Below are positions 35,922-64,000 of a stretch of DNA of 64,000 nt, in pieces. Every line of letters starts with the position of its first letter. Within the stretch, counting starts at the first letter, position 1. Where the stretch lies: assembly GCF_000430665.1 (NCBI RefSeq), contig NZ_AUML01000017.1, positions 1-64,000 on the forward strand. The letters run 5' to 3'. The position numbers were made by a program, and so were the translations under genes. Below the pieces are notes generated by a model. The model did not search any database, was not told the DNA's origin, and worked only from the letters and a program-made list of their open reading frames with translations. This DNA is from Aquimarina muelleri DSM 19832. GTDB taxonomy: Bacteria; Bacteroidota; Bacteroidia; Flavobacteriales; Flavobacteriaceae.

Positions 35922-35928
35922 ATGATTT

Positions 35929-36025
35929 AATCCACATTGTGGAGTTTAATTCTCTGAGGGTTGTCTCGAAAACAAAGTATATTTTCGGAAGCATACCTCG
36001 TGAACTAGCTCTGAGGTTATTGATT
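35929..36025 (+). repeat. Hairpin-rich intergenic repeat, copy 2 (long form)
   Basis: AATCCACATTGTGG start, TTATTGATT end. The 8-bp direct repeat CTCTGAGG occurs at 35952-35959 and 36009-36016, exactly 57 nt apart. Loss of one unit would give the short form seen at 54703 and 62916. It sits between convergent genes. Confidence 0.85.
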
Positions 36026-36069
36026 ACATCAATAAAAAACATCTAGATATAGATAAAAAAGAAGGATTA

Positions 36070-37818: not shown

Positions 37819-38115
37819 TTATACAAAATCACTTCTTAGGATATAATTTACTTTGCCAAAGGCAGCACTTACTTTTTTATTTTCTTTGCCTATGATGTAT
37901 AAGGTTTTTTTATTTTCGGCAGCATTTCTAAATAGTTTATTTAATACTGTAACTCCAGAAGAATCAATTTTTTTTACTTTATCTAGGCAGATAATTACTT
38001 TGTTTAGACGACACAATAATTTTTCAAAATGGTGTTGTAAGGATTTAGCATTTTCTGTGGTTATACTTCCTCTAATTTCAAAAATTTCTTGATTTTGGGT
38101 AATTTGTAAGGCCAT
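37819..38115 (-). CDS. STAS-domain protein A, 98 aa
   Basis: Single STAS domain: FEIRGSITTENAKSLQHHFEKLL, then VIICLDKVKKIDSSGVTVLNKLF with the canonical IDSSG phosphorylation loop, and TLYIIGKENKKVSAAF. It has no kinase (RsbW-type) gene next to it. It is placed between the flippase and GT4 genes of the surface-polymer region. A 21-bp-phased candidate operator lies 69 nt upstream. I infer a regulatory partner-switch function; the binding partner is unknown. Confidence 0.82.
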   Translation of the reverse strand: MALQITQNQEIFEIRGSITTENAKSLQHHFEKLLCRLNKVIICLDKVKKIDSSGVTVLNKLFRNAAENKKTLYIIGKENKKVSAAFGKVNYILRSDFV

Positions 38116-38183: not shown

Positions 38184-38214
38184 CGGTGAGTTACGTATAT
38201 CTTTCGACGAATAG
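38184..38214 (+). promoter_or_regulatory. Candidate LytTR-type operator, 21-bp-phased pair
   Basis: CGGTGAGTTA at 38184 and CGACGAATAG at 38205 match the pair at 29894 with identical 21-bp spacing, while the spacer differs. It lies upstream of the STAS genes and beside the flippase stop. Confidence 0.45.
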
Positions 38215-38227
38215 ATTCGACTGATCG

Positions 38228-42500: not shown

Positions 42501-43618
42501 GCAATACCATCCAGATCCGAATCGATATAATTAGCATCCTGTGCATTAAATTGACCATCTCCATTAGTATCATAATTACCTAGTCCAGCTTCTACAATAT
42601 CAAATATTCCATCATTATCACTATCTAAATCCAGTACATTAGGAACACCATCTCTATCGGTATCAAAAGCCAAAGAAACACCACTGTTACAGGTGGCTCC
42701 AAAATCTGGGTCTAAATAGTTAAAAGTCCCATCAGAATCATTATCTCCATAAGGATCTATGCCACCACTTTCTACAAGATCAGGAATACCATCTCCATCG
42801 GTATCTTTATCAAAAGGATCCAAGACCTCATCTTGATCTGCATCGATAGGGGATATGCCACTGGCACATTTAAAACCATCATTAGAATTGGTTACTTCGG
42901 TATTATTTAATAAAGTAGCATAAGGGGTGATACTTTCATAATCGTTTACTAAATATAATCCTCCACTATTACTAGATACATATAATCTATTGCTAGTATC
43001 GGTATAACAGGCACCAAATGTATGATTGGGTAAATCAGTAACGGTACTACTACTAAAAACAGGGGTGGTTGTAGAAAGATCCCATTTATACACATCTCCT
43101 CGGCTGCCACCATATAAGTTGCCATTAATAAATACAATATCTGCACATGTATTAGGGGAGGCTTGGTTAGATACTACAATTTCAAATACAGGGGGAGTAG
43201 AGCCATCATAGCTTTGAATATTGAGAATCTTATGAAAAGATTTTTTGTCTAATGAATTTTGAAAAACCCATAGATTTCCTTCATTATCTACATCGGCAGC
43301 ATAACCACCACCAAAGGAGATACCTCCATTAGGTGCAACAGCACCAAGGTCTACTATTATATCTTTTCCTATTCGTAATAAATGTTTATCACTGCTTCGT
43401 ATTGCATATAAAAAATCATCTACGGGGTTGTACCCTCCTGCATTATATGAGTTATGGGTATGAAGGGGAGTGGAATAGGTTCCTGTTATAGGGTCATAGG
43501 ATCGTAATGCTCCAGAAATTACTTGATAAAACTTTCCTTCATTACAATCAAAAGATTGTTGAGCATAGGTTACATTTGCTAGAATAACTGTTAGAATGAG
43601 AATGACGGCTTTTTTCAT
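39587..43618 (-). CDS. Giant T9SS surface protein with calcium-type repeats and DUF4114 (paralogue A)
   Basis: 1343 aa. Signal peptide 1-19. Residues about 20-255 are a propeller-like region ([19 protein letters not shown]). From about 260 to 500 there are thrombospondin type-3-like repeats (DxDxDGxxD) for calcium. DUF4114/LruC-like features follow ([21 protein letters not shown] split at the motif DHDFND). A large unknown domain, a carbohydrate-binding-like domain near 1080-1230 and a C-terminal type A sorting domain ([19 protein letters not shown]) complete it. It is exported by T9SS. It closely resembles the protein at 50557 throughout. Probable adhesin or matrix protein. Confidence 0.85.
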
Positions 43619-50556: not shown

Positions 50557-53500
50557 TTATTGTATTACAAAACGTCCCTTGTATTTTTGTTTGTTGTCGC
50601 CTCGTAGTATATAAAAGTATATACCAGGAGTTAGGTTTTTGGTTTCAAAGGTTAGGGTGTTTCCGTTTAAAAACTTATTTTGTTGTCTAACCGTTCTTCC
50701 TACTCGGTCTATTACTGTTATTTCTAAAAATTCGTGCTTGCCAGGTACATAAATAGTTGTCGAAGTGCTAAAAGGGTTAGGATAGTTTTTAAGTTTTATA
50801 TTAGTAATTCCTTCATTTTCTGTGATAGTAATTTCTTCTTCTATAGCCTCTGTCTCTGTGCTTTCTTGAGTTTCTGTTTCCAATTCTGGATCACTATTTG
50901 TAGTTTGTGTTCCTGTAAGAGCAAGGTTAGACACTTCTAGATAGAAAGGAATAAAATTTTGATAGTCTCCTTGTACAGAAAATACAATGCTTCTTATTTT
51001 CCCTAAATTAGCCTTTGTATTGATGTTGTTTGTAAAGTCAGAAAACGCGATCGTATATGTTTTTTTCTCTTCGTTTTTTTCTATTTTATATCGAAGTCTG
51101 TTGTTCCAATCGGTAAGATCTTCGGTTACCAAAATCACTTCAATATCTCTATCTGCTTGCATGGCAAACTGTACTGCATCGTAGTTAGATACATCTAGAG
51201 TAAGCTCTCCTGCAAGGATATTTCTAAAAAGATTTACAGTTTCTTTTACTTTACCTTGTACTATTGCATTGCGCTCTATAGTATAGGTGTTTTCTATCGC
51301 TTCTTTATCTTGCGCAGTTACTGCAAAGGTATCTATTTGCACTCCTTGTTCCAGATAGTCTATACCCCAAGGGCCATCTGCCAGATATAATGCATCTAAT
51401 TGTAGGGAGTTTGCTGCGGTAATAGAAAACCCGATATCAAAAAGGTATCCTGTGTCTATAGTTATTTGCTCGTTATAGGCTCCTGAAAGAGATACGGTTT
51501 GTGTCTTATTTTCTTCGGAAGATAATTCTGTTTTTCTGATGTTACCATTAAAGGTAATATGGTTTGCTCCAAATTTATTGATAAGATTTAAGGTAAGTTT
51601 TCCGTTGGCATAGCTTCCTTTTTCAACAAAAACAGAAGGTACTCTTTGGTTTACTTTATGGCTTCTTAAGGGTTTATTAGTGATAAAAGAATCCAAAATA
51701 TGATTTGCAATATTTGCTACCTGCGATACAGATCCACCCCATACCTGAAAGTTAGTATAATCTCCTTCGGGATATTGGCCAATGTTCCATAAACTATAGA
51801 TTTCATTTTCTGCTTCTCCTTTTTTGATTGAAAACGTTAGTGCATATTCTATCTCTCCTGTAGCTCTTTCTATTCTGGTACTTACTATAGTATGATTTTT
51901 AATATCTACGGTTCGCACATCTAATAATTTAGAGCCATTTAATCGGTCACATATTGTTTTGGAATGGTCATAGACAGATCCTTTTGTTTCGGTAGCCAGT
52001 GCTGCTGCTACTCTTTGGTTTGCTTTATAGTAGTCTACAGAAAATACTGCTTTTGCATTAGTTATACCAAGTAGGTCTTCTGGGCTGGATACATAGGTAG
52101 ATTCTGTACCAAAAACTCCTGTTTTAGGAAAATAGGTGCTTAAATCTTCGCCATAAGAAGATTTATACGATTTTAAACCAGGTGTAAATCTTTTTTGTGA
52201 ACTTTTGGTATTATATACTGTATTTGTTTTTGTTCGGTTAAAATTACGTTTAGCTATTAAGTTGGCTAAATCTCCATTGCTTTCTAAGCCACCATTATTA
52301 GCCGAAGTAACATTGGTTGCGCTATCTATATTTACGTAGTTGTCGGTTGCTATTGCGGTATATGGATTTGCTGTTATATAGAACAGGGCATCATTAAAAT
52401 CTTGATCACAAGATGCATAGTCTCTTCGGATATCTTCAAAACCTAGTACGATTCTTTCGTTATCGGGATCTGATAATAATACATTGTGGTATCGTAAGGA
52501 AGAGTCGGTTTCTGGGTTATAATCAGGATTAGAATGTAATTGCCAGTATCCTGTTTCTACACAACCATCTGCCCATGCATTTGCTAGTAATACCCATCCT
52601 ATTCCTGTATTAGGAGGAAAAGTACCTATTTTAACTTTATCTCCTACTTGTAATCCGCCACCACTACCAACGGCAGATACATTAGGAAAAATAATGGTAA
52701 TATCCTCTGGAGCGGGCATTGATGGGGATGGATTGTTGATATCGTAGGTATAAAAGCCTAAGGTGTTTTTGTATCCCGCACCTTCTCCTACAAAGGTTAT
52801 CCAAATATCTGCTTGTTCTTGTACGACAACATCGGTATCATATCCAGAAGAGATATAATGTGGATTAAAATCCGGAACAGGATATCCTTCTGGTAAGGCA
52901 TTTTGTATACGGTCTAAGGTTGCTTGGGTAACGATGTCTTTTTCATCAAAATATAAAGGTGTCCCGTCTTGAGAGAATTCTCCAAGATAATTGTATCGGT
53001 CACAAATTTCTGGCATAGGAAAACTGTTTGGTGTTTGCCCCCCGTTTTCTGGATCAAAACTGCTTTTTCTTAAATCAAAATTATCGTCTAATCCGTCTGC
53101 ATCGGCATCGATACCAGATGCAGTAGTTTCTGCTACACCGTTACCATCGCTATCATAGGCTTCTGTAGTATCTAATATGCCGTTATTATCCGAATCTAAA
53201 TCTAAGTAATCATAAGTGCCATCTGCATCGGTATCTGTAGTACCATTTGTAGTACCTCCAAAATCGGAATCAAAAGTATCATCTAGCCCATCGGTATCTT
53301 GGTCTGTATTAGATAATTCTTTGTAGGCAGTACTGTTTTGACTTTCGATAAGGTCTACAATCCCATCATTGTCTGAGTCTGTATCGTAGCAGTCGTATAT
53401 AGTATCGTTATCGGTATCGTTTGGTACAAAAACATTTCCTGTTTGGTCGGGATCAAAAGTATCTGCAAGACCATCATTATCGGTGTCTGCGTAATTAGCG

Positions 53501-54576
53501 TCTAAGGTACTAAATACACCATCGTTATTAGTGTCTAGAGCTCCTTGTCCTGCTTCTGTTATGTCATAAATTCCATCGTTATCTGAATCGATATCTAAAA
53601 AATCAGGATTACCATCTCTGTCTCTGTCATACGCGTCTTGTACTACATTATCGCCATTGCCACTTATATCATTATCTAAGTAGTTGTATAAATCATCGCC
53701 ATCATTATCTCCATAGGGGTCATTACCATTAGATTCTGTGGTATTTGAGATTCCGTCACCATCTACATCTGCATCCATAGAGTCTAAAATTCCATCTTGA
53801 TCTTTATCTAAAGGGGAAATACCGTTGGCACATTTAAAACCATCATTAGAGTTTGTGGTTTCGGTAAGATTAAGGAGTGTAGCTGTTGGAGTTGCGCTTT
53901 CGTAGTCGTTTACTAGGTATAATCCTCCGTTATTATCGGATAAGTACAAGCGATTATTGGCATCTGCATAAGCAGCTCCAAAAGTACCACTGGGCAAGTT
54001 TGCCACTTTTTTACTGGAGAAAATAGGTGTGCCTGAGGACAGATCCCATTTGTATAAATTTCCTCGGCTACCTCCATAAAAAGAGCCATTAATATAGGTT
54101 ATATCTGCACAAGTACTAGGGGATGCCTGATCTGTGAAAACTACTTCAAAAACGGGAGAAGAGGAACCATTATACTCTTTTAAGTTGGTTATTTTATGAA
54201 AAGCATTTTTAGTGTTATTCTGAAAAACCCATAGATTACCATCTGCATCTACATCTGCAGCATACCCTCCACCAAAAGCAGTAGTTCCACTAGGAGATAC
54301 TGCACCAAGATCTACTACCATATCTTTAGCAATTCTTAAAAGGTGTTTGTCACTGCTTTTTATAGCATACAAATAATTGTCTTCGGCATTATATCCACCA
54401 GCATTATAGGAGGAGTAGGTATGTAAGGCTTCAGAATAAGATCCTGTTATTGGATCATAGGCCTTCATTACTCCAGATATAACCTGATAAAAATTACCTT
54501 CATCACAATCAAAAGGCTGCTGGGCATTTGTAGAGATCGTAGTTAGTATAACTAAAAGGGTAATTAATCTTTTCAT
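50557..54576 (-). CDS. Giant T9SS surface protein with calcium-type repeats and DUF4114 (paralogue B)
   Basis: 1339 aa, same architecture as the protein at 39587. Signal peptide 1-19 (cut before QQPFDCDEG); propeller-like region 20-250; calcium-type repeats from LDKDQDGILDSMD (256) to about 500; DUF4114-like core with [18 protein letters not shown]; a shared unknown domain with SVDYYKANQRVAAAL; a carbohydrate-binding-like domain; and the C-terminal sorting domain (YPNPFSTSTTI, KYKGRFVIQ). The two copies differ across their full length, so the duplication is not recent. Probable adhesin or matrix scaffold exported by T9SS. Confidence 0.86.
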   Translation of the reverse strand: MKRLITLLVILTTISTNAQQPFDCDEGNFYQVISGVMKAYDPITGSYSEALHTYSSYNAGGYNAEDNYLYAIKSSDKHLLRIAKDMVVDLGAVSPSGTTAFGGGYAADVDADGNLWVFQNNTKNAFHKITNLKEYNGSSSPVFEVVFTDQASPSTCADITYINGSFYGGSRGNLYKWDLSSGTPIFSSKKVANLPSGTFGAAYADANNRLYLSDNNGGLYLVNDYESATPTATLLNLTETTNSNDGFKCANGISPLDKDQDGILDSMDADVDGDGISNTTESNGNDPYGDNDGDDLYNYLDNDISGNGDNVVQDAYDRDRDGNPDFLDIDSDNDGIYDITEAGQGALDTNNDGVFSTLDANYADTDNDGLADTFDPDQTGNVFVPNDTDNDTIYDCYDTDSDNDGIVDLIESQNSTAYKELSNTDQDTDGLDDTFDSDFGGTTNGTTDTDADGTYDYLDLDSDNNGILDTTEAYDSDGNGVAETTASGIDADADGLDDNFDLRKSSFDPENGGQTPNSFPMPEICDRYNYLGEFSQDGTPLYFDEKDIVTQATLDRIQNALPEGYPVPDFNPHYISSGYDTDVVVQEQADIWITFVGEGAGYKNTLGFYTYDINNPSPSMPAPEDITIIFPNVSAVGSGGGLQVGDKVKIGTFPPNTGIGWVLLANAWADGCVETGYWQLHSNPDYNPETDSSLRYHNVLLSDPDNERIVLGFEDIRRDYASCDQDFNDALFYITANPYTAIATDNYVNIDSATNVTSANNGGLESNGDLANLIAKRNFNRTKTNTVYNTKSSQKRFTPGLKSYKSSYGEDLSTYFPKTGVFGTESTYVSSPEDLLGITNAKAVFSVDYYKANQRVAAALATETKGSVYDHSKTICDRLNGSKLLDVRTVDIKNHTIVSTRIERATGEIEYALTFSIKKGEAENEIYSLWNIGQYPEGDYTNFQVWGGSVSQVANIANHILDSFITNKPLRSHKVNQRVPSVFVEKGSYANGKLTLNLINKFGANHITFNGNIRKTELSSEENKTQTVSLSGAYNEQITIDTGYLFDIGFSITAANSLQLDALYLADGPWGIDYLEQGVQIDTFAVTAQDKEAIENTYTIERNAIVQGKVKETVNLFRNILAGELTLDVSNYDAVQFAMQADRDIEVILVTEDLTDWNNRLRYKIEKNEEKKTYTIAFSDFTNNINTKANLGKIRSIVFSVQGDYQNFIPFYLEVSNLALTGTQTTNSDPELETETQESTETEAIEEEITITENEGITNIKLKNYPNPFSTSTTIYVPGKHEFLEITVIDRVGRTVRQQNKFLNGNTLTFETKNLTPGIYFYILRGDNKQKYKGRFVIQ

Positions 54577-54600
54577 AACAGTAGTGGTTTAGGTTTTTTC

Positions 54601-54695
54601 AGATAGTTAAAGTTACTATAGACTACTGCTTTTTTTAGAAGATATTCGATAGTTGGAAGTTTGCTATAGACGAATGGTTTTTATAGATAGTTAAG
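54601..54695 (+). promoter_or_regulatory. Repeated operator-like units upstream of surface protein B
   Basis: GATAGTT occurs at 54602, 54648 and 54686, and CTATAGAC at 54616 and 54664, forming an imperfect direct repeat of about 47 bp. CGATAGTTGG (54647) and AGACGAATGG (54668) keep the exact 21-bp spacing of the candidate LytTR sites at 29894, 38184 and 63465. GTTAAG-like cores resemble known LytTR half-sites. Confidence 0.45.
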
Positions 54696-54702
54696 TTTTT
54701 TT

Positions 54703-54743
54703 AATCCACATTGTGGAGTTTAATTCTCCGAGGTTATTGATTT
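54703..54743 (+). repeat. Hairpin-rich intergenic repeat, copy 3 (short form)
   Basis: AATCCACATTGTGGAG followed directly by TTTAATTCTCCGAGG and TTATTGATTT; the 57-nt inner module of the long form is absent. GGAG/CTCC can pair across the junction. It lies between divergent genes. Confidence 0.8.
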
Positions 54744-54930
54744 TCTTTTTTAAGGTGGAGTAGGTAACTATCTGCAGACCTCTATTTAGAATTTAGTAGC
54801 ATTGTCAAAATTCTACGCCTTTACATCACAAAAATGTGGCATTTCAAACCAATTTCCTTTCTGCATGGGACATACAAATGCTATAGAGAATATTTTTGCG
54901 GTATTATAAAAAATAAAAAAAGCACCTATT

Positions 54931-55740
54931 ATGAAAAGAAACATTGGAAATCTATCTACCTTATTTTACTTGGTAATTGTTTTTTTAAGCCTATCAAGTT
55001 GTGAAAAAGAAGATCTTTTTTCTATCGAAAACAATAAACCTTTTGGTATAACATCAAAGCATACAGGTACAAGGTATACTATTCATGTTTTATATCCAGA
55101 ATCTTATATGCCATCTAACAGTTACCATGTAGTTTATATGTTGGATGGAGAGGATTATTTTAAAGAGGCTGTGGATGTTGTTAAAGAATTCCAGAGAGAG
55201 GATATTATACTTATAGGAATAGGGTATGCAAATAAAAATAGAAGAGGAACAGATTATTCTTATCCTAAAGATCCTGATTTTCCTCATCCATCTGGTGGTG
55301 GAAAGAAATTTATCGATTTTATGAATAAGGAACTTATTCCATATATAGAAGGTGAGCTTAAAATTATCCCTGTCGACAGAACATTATATGGTCATTCTTT
55401 GGGAGGATATTTGGCTTTGTATACACTGTTTCAACAAGAGCAGCCCAATCTTTTTAAAAATGTTATTGCTGCCAGCCCAAATTTAATGTGGTATAATTCG
55501 TATCTCTTTTATCTGGAGCAACAGTATTATGATATCTATAAAGAATTGGATAAAAATCTTTATATCACGGTAGGGGATTTGGAGGGAGCTTCGATTAATT
55601 TGTTTTTTAATGCATTTACCCAGCGGATTAATAAAAGATCTTATAACGGTTTGTTTTTGGATTACGAACGTTTAAAAAACACTTCGCATAGAAATAGCCC
55701 TATTCTAAGTTTAAAAAAAGGATTATCTATAATTTTGTAA
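54931..55740 (+). CDS. Lipoprotein esterase of the alpha/beta-hydrolase (esterase D-like) family
   Basis: 269 aa. Lipobox LSSC with Cys24 marks a lipoprotein. The esterase fold (PF00756-like) is shown by YHVVYMLDGEDYFKE, IILIGIGYANKNRRGTDYSY and the nucleophile motif YGHSLGGYLALY with Ser156; the likely His is in NTSHRNSP near the C-terminus. Relatives include feruloyl/acetyl esterases and siderophore esterases. It is followed after 10 nt by a barrel-like protein gene, so both are co-transcribed. The substrate could be acylated surface polymer, but this is inference. Confidence 0.87.
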   Translation: MKRNIGNLSTLFYLVIVFLSLSSCEKEDLFSIENNKPFGITSKHTGTRYTIHVLYPESYMPSNSYHVVYMLDGEDYFKEAVDVVKEFQREDIILIGIGYANKNRRGTDYSYPKDPDFPHPSGGGKKFIDFMNKELIPYIEGELKIIPVDRTLYGHSLGGYLALYTLFQQEQPNLFKNVIAASPNLMWYNSYLFYLEQQYYDIYKELDKNLYITVGDLEGASINLFFNAFTQRINKRSYNGLFLDYERLKNTSHRNSPILSLKKGLSIIL

Positions 55741-55750
55741 ATATATTATA

Positions 55751-56371
55751 ATGAAAAAATATTGTATAGCTATTGCATGTATATATGTTATATCTGGGTT
55801 TGCCCAGAATGAAAAAGAAAATACGATGCCAGATCCAGTATCTTGGAAAATAGAATTGCTATTTACACAAGATATATTTAATACCAGTTATGGTAAAAAC
55901 TATGGTTTTGTTTTTAAAGGAAAAAAAGTATGGTTAGACAAAAATCATTTTACTTTATTGTATGGTGCGGCATTTCAAAACAGTTATATTTCTGAATCAG
56001 ATAATTTGTTTACAGATTTTGTAGATGGGTATACCAGAGATATTGGAGCTTATGGGGTTTTTGATATTAGTTATTATCCTTTTAGAAAGAAGAGGCTTTA
56101 CCTATCTCTCGAACCGTTTATTGGTGCTACCCATTTAAAATCTAAAGGACAATTATATATACCAGAATATTCGGTGTCTGAAAAATATAAGAATACGTAT
56201 ACCTATTTTAATTATGGTTTTACACAGTCTTTAGGATATACTATAAATAGATTTAGCATCATTGGGTTTTCTTGGATTTCTTTAAAAGGGATTCTGGATG
56301 AAGGCAGGAGTAGACCTGCCGATTTTGACTCTAGATTGTTTTTGGGTTTAGGGGTTGGTTACACTTTTTAG
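55751..56371 (+). CDS. Putative small outer-membrane beta-barrel protein, 206 aa
   Basis: Signal peptide about 1-18 (MKKYCIAIACIYVISGFA, cut before QNEKEN). The mature part alternates strands with aromatic residues (FTLLYGAAFQ, LYLSLEPFIGATHL, SLGYTINRFSIIGFSW) and ends LGLGVGYTF, a typical barrel-closing C-terminus. No named family recognised. It is the second gene of the esterase operon and is followed by a hairpin. Confidence 0.7.
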   Translation: MKKYCIAIACIYVISGFAQNEKENTMPDPVSWKIELLFTQDIFNTSYGKNYGFVFKGKKVWLDKNHFTLLYGAAFQNSYISESDNLFTDFVDGYTRDIGAYGVFDISYYPFRKKRLYLSLEPFIGATHLKSKGQLYIPEYSVSEKYKNTYTYFNYGFTQSLGYTINRFSIIGFSWISLKGILDEGRSRPADFDSRLFLGLGVGYTF

Positions 56372-56400
56372 CCCTTGTTATTAGTATCGTAATTATGAAT

Positions 56401-56434
56401 AAACCTTATAGATCCTTTAAGATCTGTAAGGTTT
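56401..56434. terminator. Hairpin at convergent gene ends
   Basis: AAACCTTATAGATC/GATCTGTAAGGTTT forms a 14-bp stem with one G-T pair and a 6-nt loop. It overlaps the last bases of the LytTR gene ending at 56433. No T-run, but its position suits a bidirectional terminator. Confidence 0.55.
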
Positions 56435-57326
56435 ATTGATTAAAGGCATTTTTAAAAGCCTGAAATTTGTTTCTGGATACGGGAACCTCATGAGAAATTC
56501 CTTGAAAACTAATACGGTAATTTCGAGCATTACCAGAGGTAGTGCTAATGTTTCTTATATTAATGATATAGGATCGATGTGGACTTATAATAAAAGGATA
56601 TTTTTGTAATACTTCTTCTAGTTTTTGAATGGTAATTCGATATGGCTTGCATTCAATTTTTTTAGATATACTGGTATACACATCTGTATAATTTCCTTCT
56701 GATTTTGCAAATAAAAAGGTGTTAATATCCAGCTCAAGGACTTCATTTTTATTACTAGTTTGTATTTCTATTTTATTTTGTATTTCGGGTTTTGTATCTT
56801 TTATTCTGGATGTTAGTTGCTCATTGTATAAAGAAACTCGCTTTAGGTTTTCTTTTAAAAGTATGGTGTAATTAAACCAAATTATTAGGGTAGCCGGGAT
56901 AGCTCCAATAATAACGACATATAAGGAGGAGTTTAAAAAACTAAATATAATAGTATTCGATGTATGCTCTTTACTTAGCACAAAGGACATGATATTATTA
57001 AATAGAGCAATTACAAAAAGGAGCGAAATAATTAAAAGAGATTCTTTTCCTATGGTCCAGTTTTCTTTTACATTTTGCTTAAAAAATAATCGAGGAACCC
57101 CTTCTGCTATTAAAAGAATACTAAAAAAAGTAGTAAGACCTGCAAATAAACAAACAATAAATTTTGAAAATATAAAATGATTAGTGACATAACTCTCTTC
57201 TATGGTATATAAATTAACCAGATATATTAATAATCCAAGTACTATTGCAATTATTAAATTTCTTTGAAATGAAAACAGATAAGGGTAAGGTTTATTAAAA
57301 ATCTGGATAATAGAATGTAGAAGCAT
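56433..57326 (-). CDS. Membrane-anchored LytTR DNA-binding protein
   Basis: 297 aa. Four membrane helices in residues about 20-160 (IVLGLLIYLVNLYTI, FIVCLFAGLTTFFSILL and two more), then a short coiled linker and a LytTR domain at about 195-295 (FLFAKSEGNYTDVYTS, IIQKLEEVLQKYPFIISPHRSYIIN-like pattern). It lacks a receiver domain, so it could sense membrane events directly and bind DNA. It lies downstream of a LytTR response regulator gene on the same strand, separated by a copy of the intergenic repeat. Confidence 0.85.
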   Translation of the reverse strand: MLLHSIIQIFNKPYPYLFSFQRNLIIAIVLGLLIYLVNLYTIEESYVTNHFIFSKFIVCLFAGLTTFFSILLIAEGVPRLFFKQNVKENWTIGKESLLIISLLFVIALFNNIMSFVLSKEHTSNTIIFSFLNSSLYVVIIGAIPATLIIWFNYTILLKENLKRVSLYNEQLTSRIKDTKPEIQNKIEIQTSNKNEVLELDINTFLFAKSEGNYTDVYTSISKKIECKPYRITIQKLEEVLQKYPFIISPHRSYIINIRNISTTSGNARNYRISFQGISHEVPVSRNKFQAFKNAFNQ

Positions 57327-57412
57327 TAAGAGAAATACATTTTTTTGTTCAAAGATAATAATCTAATGTTTTTTGATGAAATTCGCATATTATGTTTTTA
57401 ATAATATGCCTT

Positions 57413-57509
57413 AATCCACATTGTAGAGTTTAATTCTCTGGGGCTTGTTTCGAAAACAAAATATATTTTTGGAAGTATACCTCGTGAGCTTGCTCCGAGG
57501 TTATTGATT
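57413..57509 (+). repeat. Hairpin-rich intergenic repeat, copy 4 (long form)
   Basis: AATCCACATTGTAGAG start (one change in the palindrome), CGAAAACAAAATATAT centre and the strongest terminal hairpin of the set: CCTCG-T-GAGC-TT-GCTC-CGAGG. It lies between two same-strand genes and is antisense to them. Confidence 0.85.
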
Positions 57510-57541
57510 AAGTATTACTTTATCGGGTTAAAGAGCTTGTT

Positions 57542-58249
57542 TTACAGCATATTTAATCGTTTCATTAATTCTGGTCGGTTAGAACGACTAACGGGGACTA
57601 CATCTTTGGCAATTAATACGCTATTATCTTCTATATCTATAATTTTTTGGATGTTTATAATATAGGAGCGATGTACTTTTAGAAAAAAATCTTCTGGTAG
57701 TTTTTCTTCAATTTTTTTTAGGGTAGAGTGTACAGTATAATTTTGTTGTTCGGTTTTAATAAGAATGTAATCTCCTTTTGCTTCGATTAAATTAATGGTA
57801 AGGATATTAATTTTAATCAACCTTCTATCTATATTGATGTATAGTTCTTTTTCTTTTGTTGGTGTATCTATAGGTGTTTCCTCTTTTTTAGATACTATAG
57901 TTGCATTTTCTGCTTTTTGAATAGCTTTAAGAAATCTCGGTATTGTTATGGGTTTTATTATATAATCTATAATACAATCGTACTCAAAGGCTTCTAAAGC
58001 AAAGTTTTTATCTGAGGTTGTTAAAATTACTTTAGGAGGATTTTTTAAAGTATCGATAAAATCAAAACCTGTAAAATCTGGCATATGAATATCTAAAAAA
58101 ATAAGATCTACTTGCTCTTTGTTTAAAAATTTAATTGCTTGAATTGCATTTGGAAAATCTTGAATAACGTTAAGAGAATCTACTTGTGAACAAAGTTGTT
58201 GTAGAATAACTCTTGCGGTTTCTTCATCGTCTATAATAATGCAATTCAT
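57542..58249 (-). CDS. LytR/AlgR-type response regulator (receiver + LytTR)
   Basis: 235 aa. The receiver domain has IIIDDEETAR (acidic pocket 7-8), phosphoacceptor Asp53 in LIFLDIHMPDF, and Lys in IIKPITIPRF. The LytTR DNA-binding domain covers about 135-235 (LIEAKGDYILIKTEQ, FLKVHRSYIINIQKI, VPVSRSNRPEL). It follows the histidine kinase gene at 58494 across a 244-nt gap that contains a repeat. It is the natural candidate to read the output of the NO-sensing kinases and to bind the 21-bp-phased sites; both are inference. Confidence 0.92.
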   Translation of the reverse strand: MNCIIIDDEETARVILQQLCSQVDSLNVIQDFPNAIQAIKFLNKEQVDLIFLDIHMPDFTGFDFIDTLKNPPKVILTTSDKNFALEAFEYDCIIDYIIKPITIPRFLKAIQKAENATIVSKKEETPIDTPTKEKELYINIDRRLIKINILTINLIEAKGDYILIKTEQQNYTVHSTLKKIEEKLPEDFFLKVHRSYIINIQKIIDIEDNSVLIAKDVVPVSRSNRPELMKRLNML

Positions 58250-58384
58250 ACTAAGGTAACTTTAAATTATTTTTTTTAGAAAATCTTCTGTAGATCCTAA
58301 AATTAATGTAAATTTTGAATATAAGGAAGAGTCTCGTTATTTTAGTATTTATTTAAATGTAATAGATTTACATTGTATTTGTTT

Positions 58385-58481
58385 AATCCACATTGTGGAG
58401 TTAATTCTGCGAGGCTTGCCTTGAAAACAAAATATCTTTTTGGAAGCATACCTCATAAGCCTGCTCCGAGGGTATTGATTT
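58385..58481 (+). repeat. Hairpin-rich intergenic repeat, copy 5 (long form)
   Basis: AATCCACATTGTGGAG start with one T missing in the following TTTAATTCT, a GAGGCTTGCC segment, and the end CTCCGAGGGTATTGATT. It lies between the kinase and LytTR regulator genes, antisense to them. Confidence 0.85.
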
Positions 58482-58493
58482 ATATGATAAGTT

Positions 58494-59549
58494 TTATTTT
58501 TTTAAAGTAAAGTAAAAAGTGCTTCCAATTTCTTCTTGAGATTCCAACCAAATTTTACCATTATAAAATTCAACTATCTTTTTTACAATGGGCAAACCAA
58601 TACCAGTAGATTTTTTTTGGTCATCAAGTGTTTGAAATATCTGAAATATTTTATCATGATATTTTTTTGCAATCCCTTTACCGTTATCTTTAATATTAAA
58701 TTTCCAAAAATTGGATGTTTCTTCGAATAGAATTAAGATGACTCCTTTTTCTTTATCTATTGATTGTATAGCATTGATTAAAAGATTTTTAAATATTTGT
58801 TTTATTCTAGATCTGTCTGCAAGTACGACAGGGAGTTGGGCTTGTGTATTGATTTGGATATGTTTGGGAACTTTTAGCTCTTGTAGGATTTCTTCAATTA
58901 AGCCTATTAGTTGTACGTCAGATTTTTGATTTCTGGATTTGTTATTAATTACAGAGTACTCTAAAATACCTGTGATTAGATTATCCATTTTTTCAATATT
59001 TTGATCAATCAAATCTAAATTGTTCCTTATGTTGGGATCCAGATTTTCTTTAGCATCTTCTTTAATCCAATTAATTAGGGTATTGATACTTCTTAATGGG
59101 GATTTCAAATCATGTGAAACAATATTGGCATATTCATTAAGTTCTTTATTGCTTTTTTCAAGATCTTTAAGTAGTACTTCTCTTTGTTTTTCGACTTCAG
59201 AGATTTGAGTAGCTTGTTTTTCGATTAATATTGCCAGCTCAACTCCAGTAAGTTCTTTGTTTTTATTCTTTCCTTTTGGGTTTTTAACGGTTATGGATTG
59301 TAAAATATGTGTTGCATCGGTAAGCCGAGTAATTACTTTTTTTTGTTGGTTGGCTTCTTTTTTTAGTTTCTCATTTGCTTCAAATAGTTCTTGAGAGCTT
59401 ATAGACATAGCTCTTTGTAGCATGCTAAATTGATCTTCGTAGTTATGATAGGATCTATCGATTGCTTTAATAAAGCCTTGAATATCTTGGGACCCTTTCT
59501 CTTCTTTTTTTAAAAATTTTCTTATTTGTCTTTCTAGTAAAGAATGCAT
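58494..59549 (-). CDS. Soluble sensor histidine kinase, last gene of the NO-sensing operon
   Basis: 351 aa, no membrane segments. An N-terminal helical/coiled-coil region (1-135) has no PAS domain. HisKA box NIVSHDLKSPLRSI with His146, then N-box (IFKNLLINAIQSID), DNGKGIAKKYHDKIF and the final GIGLPIVKKIVEFYNG, a complete kinase core. The core closely resembles that of the kinase at 60689. It starts 1 nt after the FIST gene stop, so it is translationally linked. NosP/FIST sensors are known to pair with such kinases. Confidence 0.92.
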   Translation of the reverse strand: MHSLLERQIRKFLKKEEKGSQDIQGFIKAIDRSYHNYEDQFSMLQRAMSISSQELFEANEKLKKEANQQKKVITRLTDATHILQSITVKNPKGKNKNKELTGVELAILIEKQATQISEVEKQREVLLKDLEKSNKELNEYANIVSHDLKSPLRSINTLINWIKEDAKENLDPNIRNNLDLIDQNIEKMDNLITGILEYSVINNKSRNQKSDVQLIGLIEEILQELKVPKHIQINTQAQLPVVLADRSRIKQIFKNLLINAIQSIDKEKGVILILFEETSNFWKFNIKDNGKGIAKKYHDKIFQIFQTLDDQKKSTGIGLPIVKKIVEFYNGKIWLESQEEIGSTFYFTLKK

Positions 59550-59550
59550 G

Positions 59551-60684
59551 TTACTCGCTAAATAAGGTTAATGTCATTGTTTGGTTGTGTAATTCACAAT
59601 TTATGTTTCCTGTAAAAGGTGCAAGTTCTCCATACGAATAAAAACCATTTACGACAGCTTGTGTGCCGATTACTTCTATAACTTCTTCAATTTCTTCTTC
59701 AACACGTTGATCCATGACTAATTTTCTGCCAATACAACTTACTAATACTGCAAGTTCGGGTTTGTTCTTTCTATTTTTCATTCCTATTTCTGCAGCTTTT
59801 AACGCTCCATCTACGATGTGATCAATATTAGCCATCATTAGTTGTACAACAGATCCTTCAGGCACGTCTCCGGCAAGTGTCATTGTATTAGTTTGTTCAT
59901 CTATGGTTAAGATTGTTCTAACAATAGGTTCTTTTTTGTTTTTTGATTTAACACTTAGAGGGTATAATAAAGCAGATTGTGGGAGTTCTGCGGCTTTGTC
60001 TCCTAAATATTTTTTATATAAGTCTAATGCAGGCAGATTATCTAATTCATATAAAATATTTTGATCTGATTTTGTAACTATACGTTCTGGCCCAAAAGGA
60101 GTCCAACCTCCATATTGCGCAAAACTAATTTCTAGGGATTCTCCATAAAAAGCAATTAGTATTACTTCTCCTTCTTTTGGGTTCTCATTATAACTCGATA
60201 TTGTTTTTTCAAATCTTGAATCATCACCACATAGTCCTCCAGTAATAGCTACATTGTCTATCCCAGTTTCTAAGCCTTCGATTAGAGCAGAACCATTTAT
60301 AAAACTTCCTTCAGATATGACAAGAATATGTTTAAGTCCATCTTTTGATACTTTTTGTATAAGTGTCTTTCCTAGTTGGATGGCATCTTTATCGTGATCT
60401 AAACTGTTTTCTCGAAATATAGCATAGGTGCTTTTTTCGAATTCTATTGCAGTAAGGGTTATGGAATCTTCTAGAACCTGACTTCCAATTATTTCTCCAG
60501 CGGTAGAGCCAAAAACAATTTCACCATCAGGAAAAAGTTTTTTTACCTCGTTATAAATTTCTGGAGCTTCTAACGCATATCGATTTCCAAAAACTAAAAC
60601 CAAAGGTTTTTGTAGTGTTAAACCTTTACCAATTAAGGGAGACCATTCTTGGTTTTTTTTCTTTTCAAATTGTTGAAATCTCAT
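59551..60684 (-). CDS. FIST-domain sensor protein (NosP-like)
   Basis: 377 aa. FIST_N covers about 25-215 (LVLVFGNRYALEAPEIYNEV, FGSTAGEIIG) and FIST_C about 225-365, ending in the conserved VNGFYSYGELAPF. FIST proteins named NosP are established heme-based nitric oxide sensors that control a co-encoded histidine kinase. Candidate heme ligands cannot be fixed by eye. It lies between two kinase genes with 1- and 4-nt spacings, so it probably modulates one or both. Confidence 0.88.
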   Translation of the reverse strand: MRFQQFEKKKNQEWSPLIGKGLTLQKPLVLVFGNRYALEAPEIYNEVKKLFPDGEIVFGSTAGEIIGSQVLEDSITLTAIEFEKSTYAIFRENSLDHDKDAIQLGKTLIQKVSKDGLKHILVISEGSFINGSALIEGLETGIDNVAITGGLCGDDSRFEKTISSYNENPKEGEVILIAFYGESLEISFAQYGGWTPFGPERIVTKSDQNILYELDNLPALDLYKKYLGDKAAELPQSALLYPLSVKSKNKKEPIVRTILTIDEQTNTMTLAGDVPEGSVVQLMMANIDHIVDGALKAAEIGMKNRKNKPELAVLVSCIGRKLVMDQRVEEEIEEVIEVIGTQAVVNGFYSYGELAPFTGNINCELHNQTMTLTLFSE

Positions 60685-60688
60685 GCTA

Positions 60689-62284
60689 TTATTTTTTTAG
60701 TGTAAAATAAAAAGTAGTGCCAATCCCAGGCGTACTATCTAACCATATATCTCCTTCGTATAACGTTACAATTTTTTTAACGATAGCAAGTCCTATGCCT
60801 GATGAGTTTTCATTATCTCCTACAGATTCGAACATTTTAAATATTTTTTCATGATATTCTTTTTTTATTCCTATACCATTATCTTTTATACTAAATTGAT
60901 AATGAGTTTTTTTGTCTTCATAATCAATTTCTACAACCCCATTTTCTTTATCCATATAGATCACTGCATTTCCAATAAGGTTTTGAAATAGTTGCTGTAT
61001 CCTGGTCGAATCTCCATTAATAACGGGGAGCTTCTTTTTTGTACTAACTATGGTGTTTTCTGGAATAAGGACAATGTTTTTAAGGTCATCTACAAGTGTA
61101 TTAAGGTCTATCTTACTGCTTTGCAGTTCCTCTTTATTGTTTACACTAGAGTAACTAAGGATATCGTTTATTAAAGTTTCCATCTTTTCTAATGTTTTTT
61201 CGATCATTGCAAGATGATTTAATCCGATTTTATCAAAGGCAGAACTGTAATCTTCTTTGATCCAGTTTACAAGTGCATAGATGCTTCTTAATGGAGATTT
61301 TAGATCATGCGAAACGATATGTGCATAGTCTTTAAGATCTTGATTGGTTCTTTCTAGATCTTCCAAAAGCTTTTCTTTTTGTTTTTCAGATTCTAATTGT
61401 TCTGTAATATCTTCTATTAAAGCTACTTGGTATTTAATGCTTCCATCTGGGTTTCGTACTGCTGCAACATTAGTTTTTGCCCAGAAGGTGGAATTATTTT
61501 TTTTTACATATTGTTTGTTTATAGAAAAATTATCAATCAGACCTGCATTCATTTTTTCCATATGATTTTCAGATACGGCGTATTCATTTTTTAATGAAAT
61601 GTCTTTGATTTCTTTTTGAAGCAGTTCTTCCTGAGGATATTCTAATAGATTTTGAAGTGCTTTATTGGTTTGTACTATTTTCCCAGATTGGGTAAGTGCG
61701 ATCCCTAACGAAGAATTATCAACAATTGTAGAGAGTTGTTGTTTTTGTTCTTCAAAAATTCGGGTTTGTTCTAATTTTTCTGTTATATCGGTTATAATGC
61801 CTTGTGCTCCAATTGGTTTTCCTTTTTTGTTTTTAATAAGACTAGCATTTATATGCACATTTCTTACTCCATTATTTTTTGTGTATACTCTGGATTTATA
61901 TCCTGAAAATGAACCTTTGGTAACTAATTGTTGAAAGGATTGTATCGCATATTGATAGTCTTCTTTATAGACAAGTTTGATAACATTTAGTTTTTCTTTC
62001 GTAATGTCGTATCCAAATAATTTTTTAGCAGCGTGGTTCATTTCTAAAACATTGCCAGATACATCTATAAGTACGTATGCATCTACCAAATTATCAAAAA
62101 CTCCTTGCAATGTAGATTCTTTTTTACCGACCAGATCTTCAAGTTTTTGATTGGTTTTTTTTAGTTCTTGCGTAAGGAGATAGAGTTCTTTGGATTTATC
62201 TTCCAAAATTTTTTCAGCTTGCTTCCTTGCTATTTTTTCTCTTTGTAGAGCTCTCTTGAATATTTCTATATCTACATTACTCAT
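60689..62284 (-). CDS. PAS-PAS histidine kinase, H-NOX-associated
   Basis: 531 aa, soluble. Coiled-coil start (1-60), PAS domain 1 about 60-170 (VFDNLVDAYVLIDVSGNVLEMN), PAS domain 2 about 185-295 (IVDNSSLGIALTQSGKIVQTN), then HisKA HIVSHDLKSPLRSI with His326, N-box LFQNLIGNAVIYMD, DNGIGI and GIGLAIVKKIVTLYEG. Its start overlaps the H-NOX gene end by 8 nt, so translation is coupled. H-NOX proteins inhibit or control such kinases (HahK/HnoK type) on NO binding. No receiver domain in the protein; output must go to a separate regulator. Confidence 0.92.
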   Translation of the reverse strand: MSNVDIEIFKRALQREKIARKQAEKILEDKSKELYLLTQELKKTNQKLEDLVGKKESTLQGVFDNLVDAYVLIDVSGNVLEMNHAAKKLFGYDITKEKLNVIKLVYKEDYQYAIQSFQQLVTKGSFSGYKSRVYTKNNGVRNVHINASLIKNKKGKPIGAQGIITDITEKLEQTRIFEEQKQQLSTIVDNSSLGIALTQSGKIVQTNKALQNLLEYPQEELLQKEIKDISLKNEYAVSENHMEKMNAGLIDNFSINKQYVKKNNSTFWAKTNVAAVRNPDGSIKYQVALIEDITEQLESEKQKEKLLEDLERTNQDLKDYAHIVSHDLKSPLRSIYALVNWIKEDYSSAFDKIGLNHLAMIEKTLEKMETLINDILSYSSVNNKEELQSSKIDLNTLVDDLKNIVLIPENTIVSTKKKLPVINGDSTRIQQLFQNLIGNAVIYMDKENGVVEIDYEDKKTHYQFSIKDNGIGIKKEYHEKIFKMFESVGDNENSSGIGLAIVKKIVTLYEGDIWLDSTPGIGTTFYFTLKK

Positions 62285-62822
62285 TTGTCATTATAATGCT
62301 AAATTTCACTTCTGTTCCATCCGATTTTAATTTTTCTAAAGTAATATCTGCGGTGGTATTAAAATGCTCAAAAGTTTTTCGCATTAATCCAAGTCCAAAA
62401 CTATACATAGCTCTACTGGATTTGTAGATCATAACCAGTTTAGAGTCTGTTTTTTCCAAAACTTCAAAGGTAGGAAGTTCTGCGTCTGGGTATATTTTTC
62501 GAACCTCGACATGAATATGATTTTCTATAGAAGATAACATTTCGAGAGGATCGTTATATTGATTTACTAAATCAGGGTAACTACCCGCCAATACACTGAA
62601 AAAATGCTCAGCATAGGTAAGTAGTAAGTCGTCTATACTTAATTGGGTGTGTTCACTAAGATGTTTTAGTAGCCCTAGCATTTCAGAAAACTCATATGTT
62701 CCTATTGCAGTATATGCTCCTTGTGATGGTAGATTAGATTGTTGGATAATCTTATCGACTACTTCTAATCCAAATTTATCTTCGACTAGTTCTAAAAATT
62801 CTGTAAATACAATGCCTTTCAT
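62277..62822 (-). CDS. H-NOX (heme NO-binding domain) protein
   Basis: 181 aa, the length of a stand-alone H-NOX. Begins MKGIVFTEFLELVEDKFG. The proximal heme ligand is probably His104 in ENHIHVEVRKIYPDAELP, and the heme-propionate motif YxSxR is Y133-KSS-R137 (IYKSSRAMYSFG). These proteins bind nitric oxide through ferrous heme and regulate an adjacent kinase. It is the first gene of a four-gene operon, overlapping the kinase gene by 8 nt. A short-form intergenic repeat lies upstream. Confidence 0.93.
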   Translation of the reverse strand: MKGIVFTEFLELVEDKFGLEVVDKIIQQSNLPSQGAYTAIGTYEFSEMLGLLKHLSEHTQLSIDDLLLTYAEHFFSVLAGSYPDLVNQYNDPLEMLSSIENHIHVEVRKIYPDAELPTFEVLEKTDSKLVMIYKSSRAMYSFGLGLMRKTFEHFNTTADITLEKLKSDGTEVKFSIIMTNE

Positions 62823-62915
62823 ATAGTAAGTTGATTATAGGTTTTATCTGTTTTTATTTGCTTTTTATGAATAGATAAAATATACCAATAATCATGTAGG
62901 CTAGCTGTCTGCTTT

Positions 62916-62954
62916 AATCCACATTGTGGAGTTTAATTCTCCAAGGTTATTGAC
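62916..62954 (+). repeat. Hairpin-rich intergenic repeat, copy 6 (short form)
   Basis: AATCCACATTGTGGAG then TTTAATTCTCCAAGG and TTATTGACT; lacks the 57-nt module like copy 3. GGAG/CTCC can pair. It lies in the gap upstream of the H-NOX gene, antisense to the operon. Confidence 0.8.
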
Positions 62955-62968
62955 TATGATGGTTTATT

Positions 62969-63376
62969 CTATACTTTAAAAAGCTCATTAACGCTCCAAT
63001 ATTCGATTAAACATTTTATTTTATGTATATAATCTTCATATTTTAAAGGTTTTACAATGTACCCTGCTGCTCCTGTTTTGTAAGCCTCTTTAAGATCTTG
63101 ATGATTATTAGAGGTACTTAATATTATTACAGGTATATATCGTAAATCGGTATTTGACTTTAACTCTTTTAAAAACTCCAAACCATTCATTTTTGGCATG
63201 TTTAAATCCAAAAAAATTAAATCTGGTTGTTGTTCTTTTTGAGCTAATATGTCTAAAGCTTCTTCACCATTTTTGGCTTCTATAATTTTGTGGGGGTAAT
63301 TATTTTTTTGCAGAACTCTTGCAAATTTGAGTCTTTCTATTTCGTCATCATCGATTAGTAAAAAATTTAAGCTCAT
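62969..63376 (-). CDS. CheY-like single-domain response regulator
   Basis: 135 aa, receiver domain only. LLIDDDEIERL gives the acidic pocket at 9-11; phosphoacceptor Asp57 lies in LIFLDLNMPKMNG; the switch Ser/Thr is in VIILSTSNNHQDL; the Lys is in YIVKPLKYEDY. The pattern resembles Rcp1-type regulators paired with phytochrome or PAS kinases. It is 147 nt upstream of the H-NOX gene on the same strand and could relay phosphate from the kinases. A triple 21-bp-phased site lies 90 nt upstream of its start. Confidence 0.92.
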   Translation of the reverse strand: MSLNFLLIDDDEIERLKFARVLQKNNYPHKIIEAKNGEEALDILAQKEQQPDLIFLDLNMPKMNGLEFLKELKSNTDLRYIPVIILSTSNNHQDLKEAYKTGAAGYIVKPLKYEDYIHKIKCLIEYWSVNELFKV

Positions 63377-63464
63377 TTTTCTTTCAGATTATTAAATTAA
63401 GTTAAAAATTGTTCTTTAACAATAATAAAGATGATCTTTTTATAAAAGAGTTTATTATTTCTTT

Positions 63465-63516
63465 CGTCGAAACTTATTTTAGTGTAGACGAATGGTAATT
63501 TTGTGTAGATGATTGG
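63465..63516 (+). promoter_or_regulatory. Candidate LytTR-type operator, three 21-bp-phased half-sites
   Basis: CGTCGAAACT at 63465, AGACGAATGG at 63486 and AGATGATTGG at 63507 are spaced exactly 21 bp, two helical turns. AGACGAATGG is identical to the half-site at 54668. It lies between a LytTR regulator gene and the CheY-like gene, suitable for autoregulation. Confidence 0.5.
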
Positions 63517-63573
63517 GATGACATTTTTCGTTTGTTTTTTACTTATGGATAGTGATATTAATATACGATGATT

Positions 63574-64000
63574 TTATCTGTGTAATCGATCCAAGATTTC
63601 CATTACTTCTATTTTTTTTCTAACAGATACAGGTATGTTTTCTCCATTTTTTAACATAAGATATCCGCCATCGGTTTTTATAAAAGCACTAATACATTGT
63701 AGGTTAACTAAGTGACTTTGGTGTACACGTAAAAATTGATAACTTTTAAGCATATCGGCAAAGTATTTTAATGTTTTGGTAACAAATATCTTTTGTTCTT
63801 CTTTTAAGTAAAAAATAGTATTATTACTATCAGACTCGCATCTAATAATATCATCAAGGTTAACAATAATAATTTTATCAAGAGTATGTAGAGATATTTT
63901 GTCTGGTTTTTGCTCTGGGGCAGATAATGTGTCTTTAAGTATATTTAACCGCTCTTTATTAGGTTGAATTTGTTCTTTTGCTCTTCCTATGGCTTGTGCA
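63574..64000 (-). CDS. LytTR response regulator, C-terminal part (runs off right edge)
   Basis: Minus-strand frame open from the right window edge to a stop at 63574-63576, 141 codons. The C-terminal LytTR domain spans about the last 95 residues: IIIVNLDDIIRCESDSNNT, then LRVHQSHLVNLQCI and VSVRKKIEVMEIL. Upstream residues (AQAIGRAKEQIQPNKERL) look like the linker after a receiver domain, which would lie outside the window. A third LytTR protein of this neighbourhood. Confidence 0.85.
   Translation of the reverse strand, partial: AQAIGRAKEQIQPNKERLNILKDTLSAPEQKPDKISLHTLDKIIIVNLDDIIRCESDSNNTIFYLKEEQKIFVTKTLKYFADMLKSYQFLRVHQSHLVNLQCISAFIKTDGGYLMLKNGENIPVSVRKKIEVMEILDRLHR

Follow-up and report, generated by a model that had tools for sequence, protein, structure and literature searches.

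Gene content and layout of the locus

We analysed a 64,000-nt stretch of the genome of Aquimarina muelleri DSM 19832 (the window; contig NZ_AUML01000017.1, positions 1 to 64,000), near whose end a gene set brings together an H-NOX protein, which is a haem-nitric oxide (NO)/O2-binding protein, and a FIST protein, each adjoining a histidine kinase, with a CheY-like receiver protein (REC) and a LytTR response regulator (Table 1). All open reading frames (ORFs) of a first-pass annotation, made earlier from the sequence alone, were confirmed by the ORF list at their positions, all on the minus strand. The coordinates bear out the tight packing of four genes that it described, with an overlap of 8 nt between H-NOX and kinase 1 and gaps of 4 nt between kinase 1 and FIST and 1 nt between FIST and kinase 2. 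The CheY-like regulator that it placed upstream is REC, which lies directly before H-NOX in most relatives. LytTR regulators were also proposed on both sides of the gene set, and both exist; only the downstream one (57542) is part of the conserved unit. Its REC and LytTR domains both exceed the Pfam cut-off, and it closes the unit in relatives. The upstream one (63574, cut at the window end) is a LytTR response regulator of 249 aa that extends to contig base 64323, and the listing of 107 relatives' loci revealed no same-strand regulator of ~249 aa immediately before REC. The source genome, a 100-contig draft, carries a single H-NOX and a single FIST.

A proximal haem histidine and the YxSxR motif are the defining residues of the H-NOX family. 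In the window protein they are, as first read, His104 and YKSSR (Y133-K-S-S-R137), which align with the corresponding positions of PDB 6BDD; His104 is invariant in 25/25 aligned H-NOX sequences chosen from 107 fetched loci and the window. The HNOB model (PF07700) covers residues 2–161 of 181 (E 4e-39). Because the protein matches 6BDD, the H-NOX of Kordia algicida (PMC7356049), over 176 residues (E 9e-84), it likely binds haem and NO. The nearest named H-NOX loci, at 91–92% identity, belong to A. megaterium, A. macrocephali, A. algiphila and two further Aquimarina.

The two kinases match each other at 237–239 bits, in agreement with the similar core that had been assigned to the second, and in a quick tree their cores form two neighbouring groups with exceptions (5 changes for kinase 1, 6 for kinase 2). 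Kinase 2 opens with ~130 aa without a recognised sensor domain, followed by HisKA-HATPase. Kinase 1 falls into length classes near 404, 530, 655, 700, 790 and 826 aa across relatives, which we read as about one to five PAS domains, a count that Pfam confirms in the window alone. The phospho-accepting histidine lies in the motif HDLKS in at least 179/198 kinases 1 and at least 93/108 kinases 2, counted over the top eight motifs of each set. HDLKS departs from the phosphatase motif H-E/D-x-x-T/N quoted in PMC12570481, from which we infer that both kinases may have weak phosphatase activity.

Table 1 Features of the conserved unit, its predicted operator and the proposed targets within the window
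Feature	Position	Strand	Basis
REC, single-domain CheY-like response regulator, 135 aa	62969..63376	-	Pfam Response_reg 3e-27
H-NOX (haem-NO/O2-binding protein), 181 aa, His104, YxSxR	62277..62822	-	Pfam HNOB
Kinase 1, PAS-PAS-HisKA-HATPase, 531 aa	60689..62284	-	Pfam, two PAS
FIST-FIST_C protein, 377 aa	59551..60684	-	Pfam FIST 4e-43, FIST_C 6e-35
Kinase 2, HisKA-HATPase, 351 aa	58494..59549	-	Pfam, no PAS
Diverged copy of ~107-nt dispersed repeat (family D2), in place of the 5' part of the histidine phosphotransfer (HPt) gene	58375..58481	.	Repeat family, alignment
HPt 3' remnant	58262..58348	-	blastn 80% over 40 nt, E 4e-5 to locus L148
LytTR response regulator, 235 aa, proposed output	57542..58249	-	Pfam LytTR 8e-20, Response_reg 3e-17
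Predicted tandem operator before REC, half-sites CCAATCATCTACAC.. and CCATTCGTCTACAC.., 21 bp apart	63478..63519	-	Weight matrix
Predicted operator half-site, score 19.3, ends 83 nt before start codon of 50557..54576 gene	54660..54680	-	Weight matrix
Proposed target, secreted DUF6923-DUF4114 protein with type IX secretion system (T9SS) sorting tail, 1339 aa	50557..54576	-	Domains and half-site
Weaker predicted half-site, score 15.7, ends 81 nt before STAS gene (exopolysaccharide-type cluster)	38197..38217	-	Weight matrix
Proposed targets, two STAS-domain proteins	37819-38115, 37495-37794	-	Domain matches
Proposed target, group-1 glycosyltransferase	36070-37251	-	Domain match

Conservation across the Flavobacteriaceae

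We surveyed 299 Flavobacteriaceae genomes, 66 genomes of the genus and 395 genomes of the phylum. Of 109 H-NOX places in the family sample, 107 were fetched, leaving out a sub-threshold match (G076:C2) and the window's own; these family-draw loci (107 or 100, depending on the count) overlap in species with a set of named loci (80 or 79), and one locus (L062) had no recognised H-NOX when gene order was scored. H-NOX occurs in 105 of the 299 genomes, FIST in 87 and both in 68. The two lie at most 3 kb apart in 58 genomes, and in 57 of these FIST lies downstream on the same strand at 1.3–2.7 kb. An odd locus in genome G253 has FIST upstream of H-NOX.

REC immediately precedes H-NOX in 100/107 family-draw and 79/80 named loci. 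The full order REC/H-NOX/kinase/FIST/kinase/HPt/LytTR is found in 47/107 and 43/80 loci, respectively, and the FIST-less order REC/H-NOX/kinase/HPt/LytTR in 35/107 and 23/80; some loci, L074 and L164 among them, have neither HPt nor LytTR. The recurrence of the gene order across the family excludes a chance arrangement. Within the genus, H-NOX is present in 54 genomes and a linked FIST in 41, with two FIST genes at the locus in six; FIST stands beside H-NOX in 41/42 FIST-bearing genomes, the single genome with FIST alone being 69% complete. In the phylum sample H-NOX occurs in 27 genomes, 15 of them Flavobacteriaceae, all 15 of which carry the HPt family (E ≤ 2e-24), and the unit looks rare outside the family.

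Evolutionary distances among REC, H-NOX, kinase 1, FIST, kinase 2, HPt and LytTR correlate pairwise over 49 loci (r 0.665–0.867), and 0/999 permutations reach the observed r for any gene pair, although shared ancestry is still included in these values. For FIST and H-NOX, r is 0.793 (0/999 permutations as high). This speaks against an unrelated recent insertion of the FIST-kinase pair and indicates that FIST and kinase 2 were inherited along with the rest of the unit. The data support the view of a single conserved unit that contains both sensor-kinase pairs together with a CheY-like REC and a LytTR output.

The spacing between FIST and H-NOX varies in steps of ~380 nt among relatives, and in the Aquimarina locus L194 kinase 2 is fused to HPt (494 aa). 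We also considered that FIST may be lost by recombination between the two kinase cores. Support was inconsistent: the single kinase of the FIST-less locus L148 groups among kinases 2 in a 77-row tree and nearer kinases 1 with all rows (where the locus entered under its named record, L232), and a sliding comparison gives a weak mosaic that is also seen in the FIST-bearing L230.

An HPt gene that is decayed in the window

An HPt gene of ~105 aa lies between the last kinase and LytTR in 91/92 oriented loci, the window being the exception. The 92 loci, window included, have LytTR after the kinases, and HPt was recognised by a long ATG frame in 87, by motif in 90 and by reading in L136. The five nearest named relatives (L216–L220) retain the gene. 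Pfam Hpt matches 13/13 members at E ≤ 0.1 (best 1.5e-7), with His56 invariant in the 13; the bit scores of the first member (21.8) and of a second HPt of the source genome (17.2) stay below the cut-off of 24.6.

In the window, the 244-nt gap between kinase 2 and LytTR holds a diverged repeat copy followed by ~85 nt alignable with the HPt 3' end. The remnant shares 50/60 ungapped positions with L216, where 1000 shuffles give at most 36. It contains an in-frame stop and lacks the phospho-accepting histidine, and we take it to be non-functional. A second, intact HPt of the same family is encoded elsewhere in the source genome (C1:43558-43872, E 7e-39). In a tree that included 5 of 17 unlinked copies it joins four other unlinked copies from the genus in one clade (99/98), and it therefore looks like an old duplicate rather than a moved gene; we rejected the idea that the unit's own HPt had merely moved, since the second HPt belongs to this separate clade. 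The source strain probably runs the relay through the second HPt. Linked HPt is found in 51/54 genus genomes with H-NOX, the exceptions being the source genome, G320 and G337 (the latter two 55% complete), and unlinked copies in 17/54. The 12 genus genomes without H-NOX gave no strong HPt match, linked or unlinked, and only weak matches to other HPt proteins.

The dispersed repeat of ~107 nt, with palindrome TCCACATTGTGGA, has copies in the window at 25589-25695, 35920-36026, 57404-57510 and 58375-58481, and shorter copies at 54700-54740 and 62913-62953. Searched with another copy, it occupies at least 40 places in the genome, from 218 first-look candidates. Among the unlinked HPt copies, that of L192 (9559-9876) lies tail to tail with a REC-glycosyltransferase-2 fusion (9915-11078), near genes read as cobalamin biosynthesis, and four other Aquimarina have REC-bearing neighbours of 387–402 aa beside theirs.

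A conserved, predicted tandem operator upstream of REC

The region upstream of REC contains a conserved pair of direct half-sites. The 8-mer CATTCGTC occurs there in 56/100 loci (0.0 expected). Exact direct repeats of 9 bases are most frequent at a spacing of 21, in 21 loci against 0.2 expected. A half-site pair with the consensus CCATTCGTCTACACTTAA and a spacing of 21 or 22 precedes REC in 68/100 loci, with 0 pairs in shuffled, internal-coding and LytTR-upstream controls. We trained a weight matrix on these 68 relatives' loci, using the sites upstream of REC alone. It detects a pair upstream of REC in 72/100 family-draw and 66/79 named loci and a single half-site in 87/100 and 79/79, respectively; a matrix built from half the loci recovers 38/50 held-out loci. 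The window pair scores 40.8, the top value in the 64 kb, while the best pair in 20 shuffled windows reaches 9.5.

LytTR regulators use two direct half-sites about 21–22 bp apart, that is, two helical turns. As the spacing found here agrees with this, we assign the conserved tandem operator to the LytTR regulator of the unit as its predicted binding site. Presence and absence of the operator vary with the regulator, at 82/8 for loci with a linked LytTR and 2/4 for loci without (p 0.002); four loci whose contig ends before LytTR were set aside, and three of the four operator-less loci without LytTR (L090, L096 and L112) are closely related to one another by the kinase tree. Among H-NOX-less loci, the operator stands before REC in 4/7 with a unit-type REC and before HPt in one. 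In L090, L096 and L112 the genes from REC to HPt are complete, with no LytTR regulator seen and no operator, and these loci possibly have another output.

Proposed targets and a putative surface-matrix island

Across family-draw, named and H-NOX-less loci, 190 of 205 pair sites are directly followed by an ORF of 90 aa or more. REC accounts for 152 of these and a family of large secreted proteins for 18; the others occur one to four times each and include, as named by sequence reading, NDP-sugar dehydrogenase, flippase-like, Wzz-like and STAS proteins. For the family draw and the window, with each ORF class assigned from its similarity to one or two query sequences, a half-site scoring above 14 lies upstream of 32/40 secreted DUF4114-type ORFs, compared with 9/550 other ORFs of at least 250 aa, and upstream of 10/23 STAS, 10/23 glycosyltransferase and 3/6 Wzz-like ORFs.

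A scan of 464 kb of the source genome gave five half-sites that score above 15 and lie outside long ORFs; all five are on this contig, where they occupy four places from 29.9 to 63.5 kb. The same scan gave one half-site inside an ORF on C1, and one shuffle yields one. This clustering suggests that the unit forms one end of a surface-matrix island probably under its control (Table 1), a prediction that concerns secretion- and polysaccharide-type genes rather than measured biofilm. A polysaccharide flippase (38228-39469) and two glycosyltransferases nearby have no half-sites of their own. A pair at 29886 stands, in reversed orientation, before a 1030-aa ORF without a Pfam match, followed by Ig-like and GH5 cellulase-type genes. 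Adjoining the unit, a minus-strand ORF (56433-57326) combines a C-terminal LytTR domain with a hydrophobic N-terminal part, and no match to this type of protein was found in the 107 relatives' loci. Rfam gave no match on 54500-64000.

A predicted split phosphorelay with exchangeable sensors

The protein kinds of a split phosphorelay, namely kinase, REC, HPt and DNA-binding regulator, all occur in one unit in relatives, and in the window, where the linked HPt is broken, the intact HPt lies on another contig. The HPt family (E ≤ 1e-20) is present in 99/105 genomes with H-NOX and in 17/194 without. Five of these 17 have REC-kinase-HPt-LytTR in order, in four a contig end leaves kinase-HPt-LytTR, another five carry incomplete or rearranged sets and the last three a lone HPt. 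The occurrence of REC-kinase-HPt-LytTR without H-NOX implies that H-NOX and the FIST-kinase pair come and go on this backbone.

We consider it probable (about 60%) that the locus is one copy of a common Flavobacteriaceae unit, a split four-step phosphorelay that would drive its own operon and surface-matrix genes. Binding of NO to the haem of H-NOX would set the activity of kinase 1, and FIST that of kinase 2. Both kinases would phosphorylate the stand-alone REC, from which the phosphoryl group would pass to HPt and on to the LytTR regulator; the direction of phosphoryl flow and the sign of regulation are predictions. The regulator would bind the two direct half-sites 21 bp apart and control its own operon, the nearby secreted DUF4114-type gene and the exopolysaccharide-type cluster. 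In the source strain, the linked HPt would have decayed beside the dispersed repeat, with the second, intact HPt most likely substituting for it. The output through LytTR control that the first-pass annotation suggested is thus supported, but it more likely runs through a four-step phosphorelay with HPt, which was missed because this copy has lost its HPt.

Several points weigh against this reading. The kinases could phosphorylate LytTR directly, and FIST falls short of the NosP cut-off. Related loci were counted separately and are non-independent samples. Outside the family, HPt accompanies H-NOX in 1/12 genomes (G512, 4.2 kb from H-NOX). The take-over by the second HPt is an inference. The operator is missing from eight loci that have LytTR and present in two where no LytTR is visible. 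Regarding the targets, the site before the gene at 50557..54576 is a single half-site whose partner, 21 bp away, is so weak that it receives no score, and a paralogue ~11 kb away (39587-43618, DUF6923-DUF4114 with a T9SS tail) has no half-site. The second-best operator pair (29886-29927, minus strand, score 22.5) stands in an odd orientation between two plus-strand genes. Finally, half-sites are far from general, occurring upstream of flippases in 3/21 cases and of sugar dehydrogenases in 3/9.

A wider formulation, on which we are evenly divided, is a plug-in phosphorelay with a fixed chassis (REC, kinase, HPt, LytTR and the tandem 21-bp operator) that takes NO and other cytosolic sensors as cassettes and controls the adjacent surface-protein/exopolysaccharide island. 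H-NOX would separate REC from the kinase, one or two FIST-kinase pairs would follow the kinase ahead of HPt, and kinase 1 would take about one to five PAS domains; NO would act on the surface matrix via LytTR rather than via cyclic diguanylate (c-di-GMP).

The FIST protein and alternative readings

FIST had been described as NosP-type, which the NCBIfam NosP equivalog does not bear out: the window protein scores 69.3 bits and five relatives 32–84 bits against a cut-off of 450, which counts against an NO input through FIST. By this cut-off we refuse the statement that it is a NosP. In view of this score, and of a divergent FIST form that lacks His366, the integration of NO signals at different affinities that the first-pass annotation suggested is hypothetical. 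A search against PDB sequences (E ≤ 1) matched no chain. The possibility that FIST senses another ligand, such as haem itself or a small metabolite, so that the unit integrates NO with a different signal, is a serious one that falls somewhat short of an even chance. In addition to the low equivalog score, it is favoured by a divergent FIST form (9 sequences from sister loci) that occupies the same slot and keeps Cys317 without His366, with 32–40 bits on the NosP model in two examples; in the main form, His366 and Cys317 are invariant in 97/97 sequences and are also found in two Azospirillum relatives. On the other hand, the FIST + FIST_C architecture adjoining a soluble kinase is present in the window, the protein-kinase order equals that of NosP-NahK pairs, the window FIST aligns with the NosP model across residues 28–354, which is nearly full length, and FIST almost always stands beside H-NOX in the genus. 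We consider that the window FIST likely works like NosP.

A FIST-kinase neighbourhood also occurs elsewhere: both Azospirillum plasmids examined carry consecutive genes for FIST, for a PAS protein annotated as 'PAS domain S-box protein' and for a response regulator. A search for the kinase 2 N-terminus in plasmids gave no match. Tandem FIST clusters of 2–4 genes (G037, G069, G101, G225, G261 and others) mostly occur in genomes without H-NOX and are distinct from the unit.

Less probable, though by no means negligible, are two plain two-component branches, in which the kinases phosphorylate LytTR directly, REC acts as a phosphate sink or competitor and HPt forms a side branch. This would fit the loss of the linked HPt from the window while REC and LytTR are still open and complete, and a phosphate sink could be useful to kinases with HDLKS in place of the motif quoted in PMC12570481. 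The position of HPt before LytTR in nearly all oriented loci, also where H-NOX is absent, and the second HPt of the same family in the source genome favour the four-step phosphorelay. Split phosphorelays, moreover, usually comprise a lone REC together with a lone HPt. A misassembly at the dispersed repeat, with a linked HPt really present in the genome, is very improbable: the many copies of the repeat are a usual place for misjoins and the genome is a 100-contig draft, yet the 3' scrap is in place right before LytTR and decayed with an in-frame stop, and the genome-wide search (three matches at E ≤ 10) yields no linked-type HPt elsewhere, two matches being weak and the strong one belonging to the separate clade.

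Discussion

The Spo0-type split phosphorelay consists of kinases, a lone REC, a phosphotransferase and a DNA-binding regulator. The same kinds of component are found here, where the phosphotransferase matches Pfam Hpt, the regulator is LytTR and the sensors are H-NOX and FIST. In the H-NOX/HqsK-LuxU-LuxO system of Vibrio (PMC6769237, PMC8738867), as proposed here, an H-NOX-controlled kinase feeds an HPt and then a transcriptional regulator. In both cases one HPt receives input from several kinases: H-NOX-HqsK and, in V. cholerae, NosP-VpsS both feed LuxU (PMC6769237). The Vibrio relay differs in its hybrid kinases with their own receiver, in sharing LuxU with quorum sensing and in its output LuxO; here REC, kinases, HPt and the LytTR regulator stand in one unit with both sensors. 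NosP/NahK (NosK)/NarR or NosR systems (PMC12570481, PMC8846402) likewise have a FIST protein adjoining a soluble kinase, and NosK has ~130 aa without a recognised sensor domain before its dimerisation and histidine phosphotransfer domain, as kinase 2 has here. Their response regulators carry c-di-GMP-type output domains, in contrast to LytTR, and the FIST protein studied here lies below the NosP cut-off. HnoX-HnoK-HnoB/HnoD of Shewanella (PMC8846402) also uses H-NOX as an auxiliary kinase sensor; its output is a phosphodiesterase, and no HPt or LytTR is described in the cited passages.

The four-gene arrangement, which according to the first-pass annotation is not known to have been described, was not found in the papers searched. 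The neighbourhood itself had been printed: PMC8738867 places FIST genes near hnox in group 1 of a sequence similarity network (SSN), an account that in the cited passages mentions neither a gene order nor HPt, LytTR, an operator or the Flavobacteriaceae. The terms of a neighbourhood analysis were not found in the text of PMC7108781. We found no account of H-NOX, FIST, HPt and LytTR as one unit, nor of the HPt, operator and targets of the unit, in a full-text literature search that most subscription papers fall outside.

In the passages of the papers surveyed, the NO-sensing pathways that have been worked out in bacteria belong to Proteobacteria, and most of them lead to c-di-GMP enzymes or quorum-sensing regulators. 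In the Flavobacteriaceae, a large and mostly marine family, these sensors seem to be set on another backbone, for which a defined operator and candidate targets are at hand. The gene set probably senses NO, perhaps along with another signal, relays it through phosphate carriers and turns on genes for surface proteins and a sugar coat. The variable cassettes offer a natural series for how sensors join and leave a phosphorelay, and the route from NO to surface behaviour in Bacteroidota becomes directly testable.

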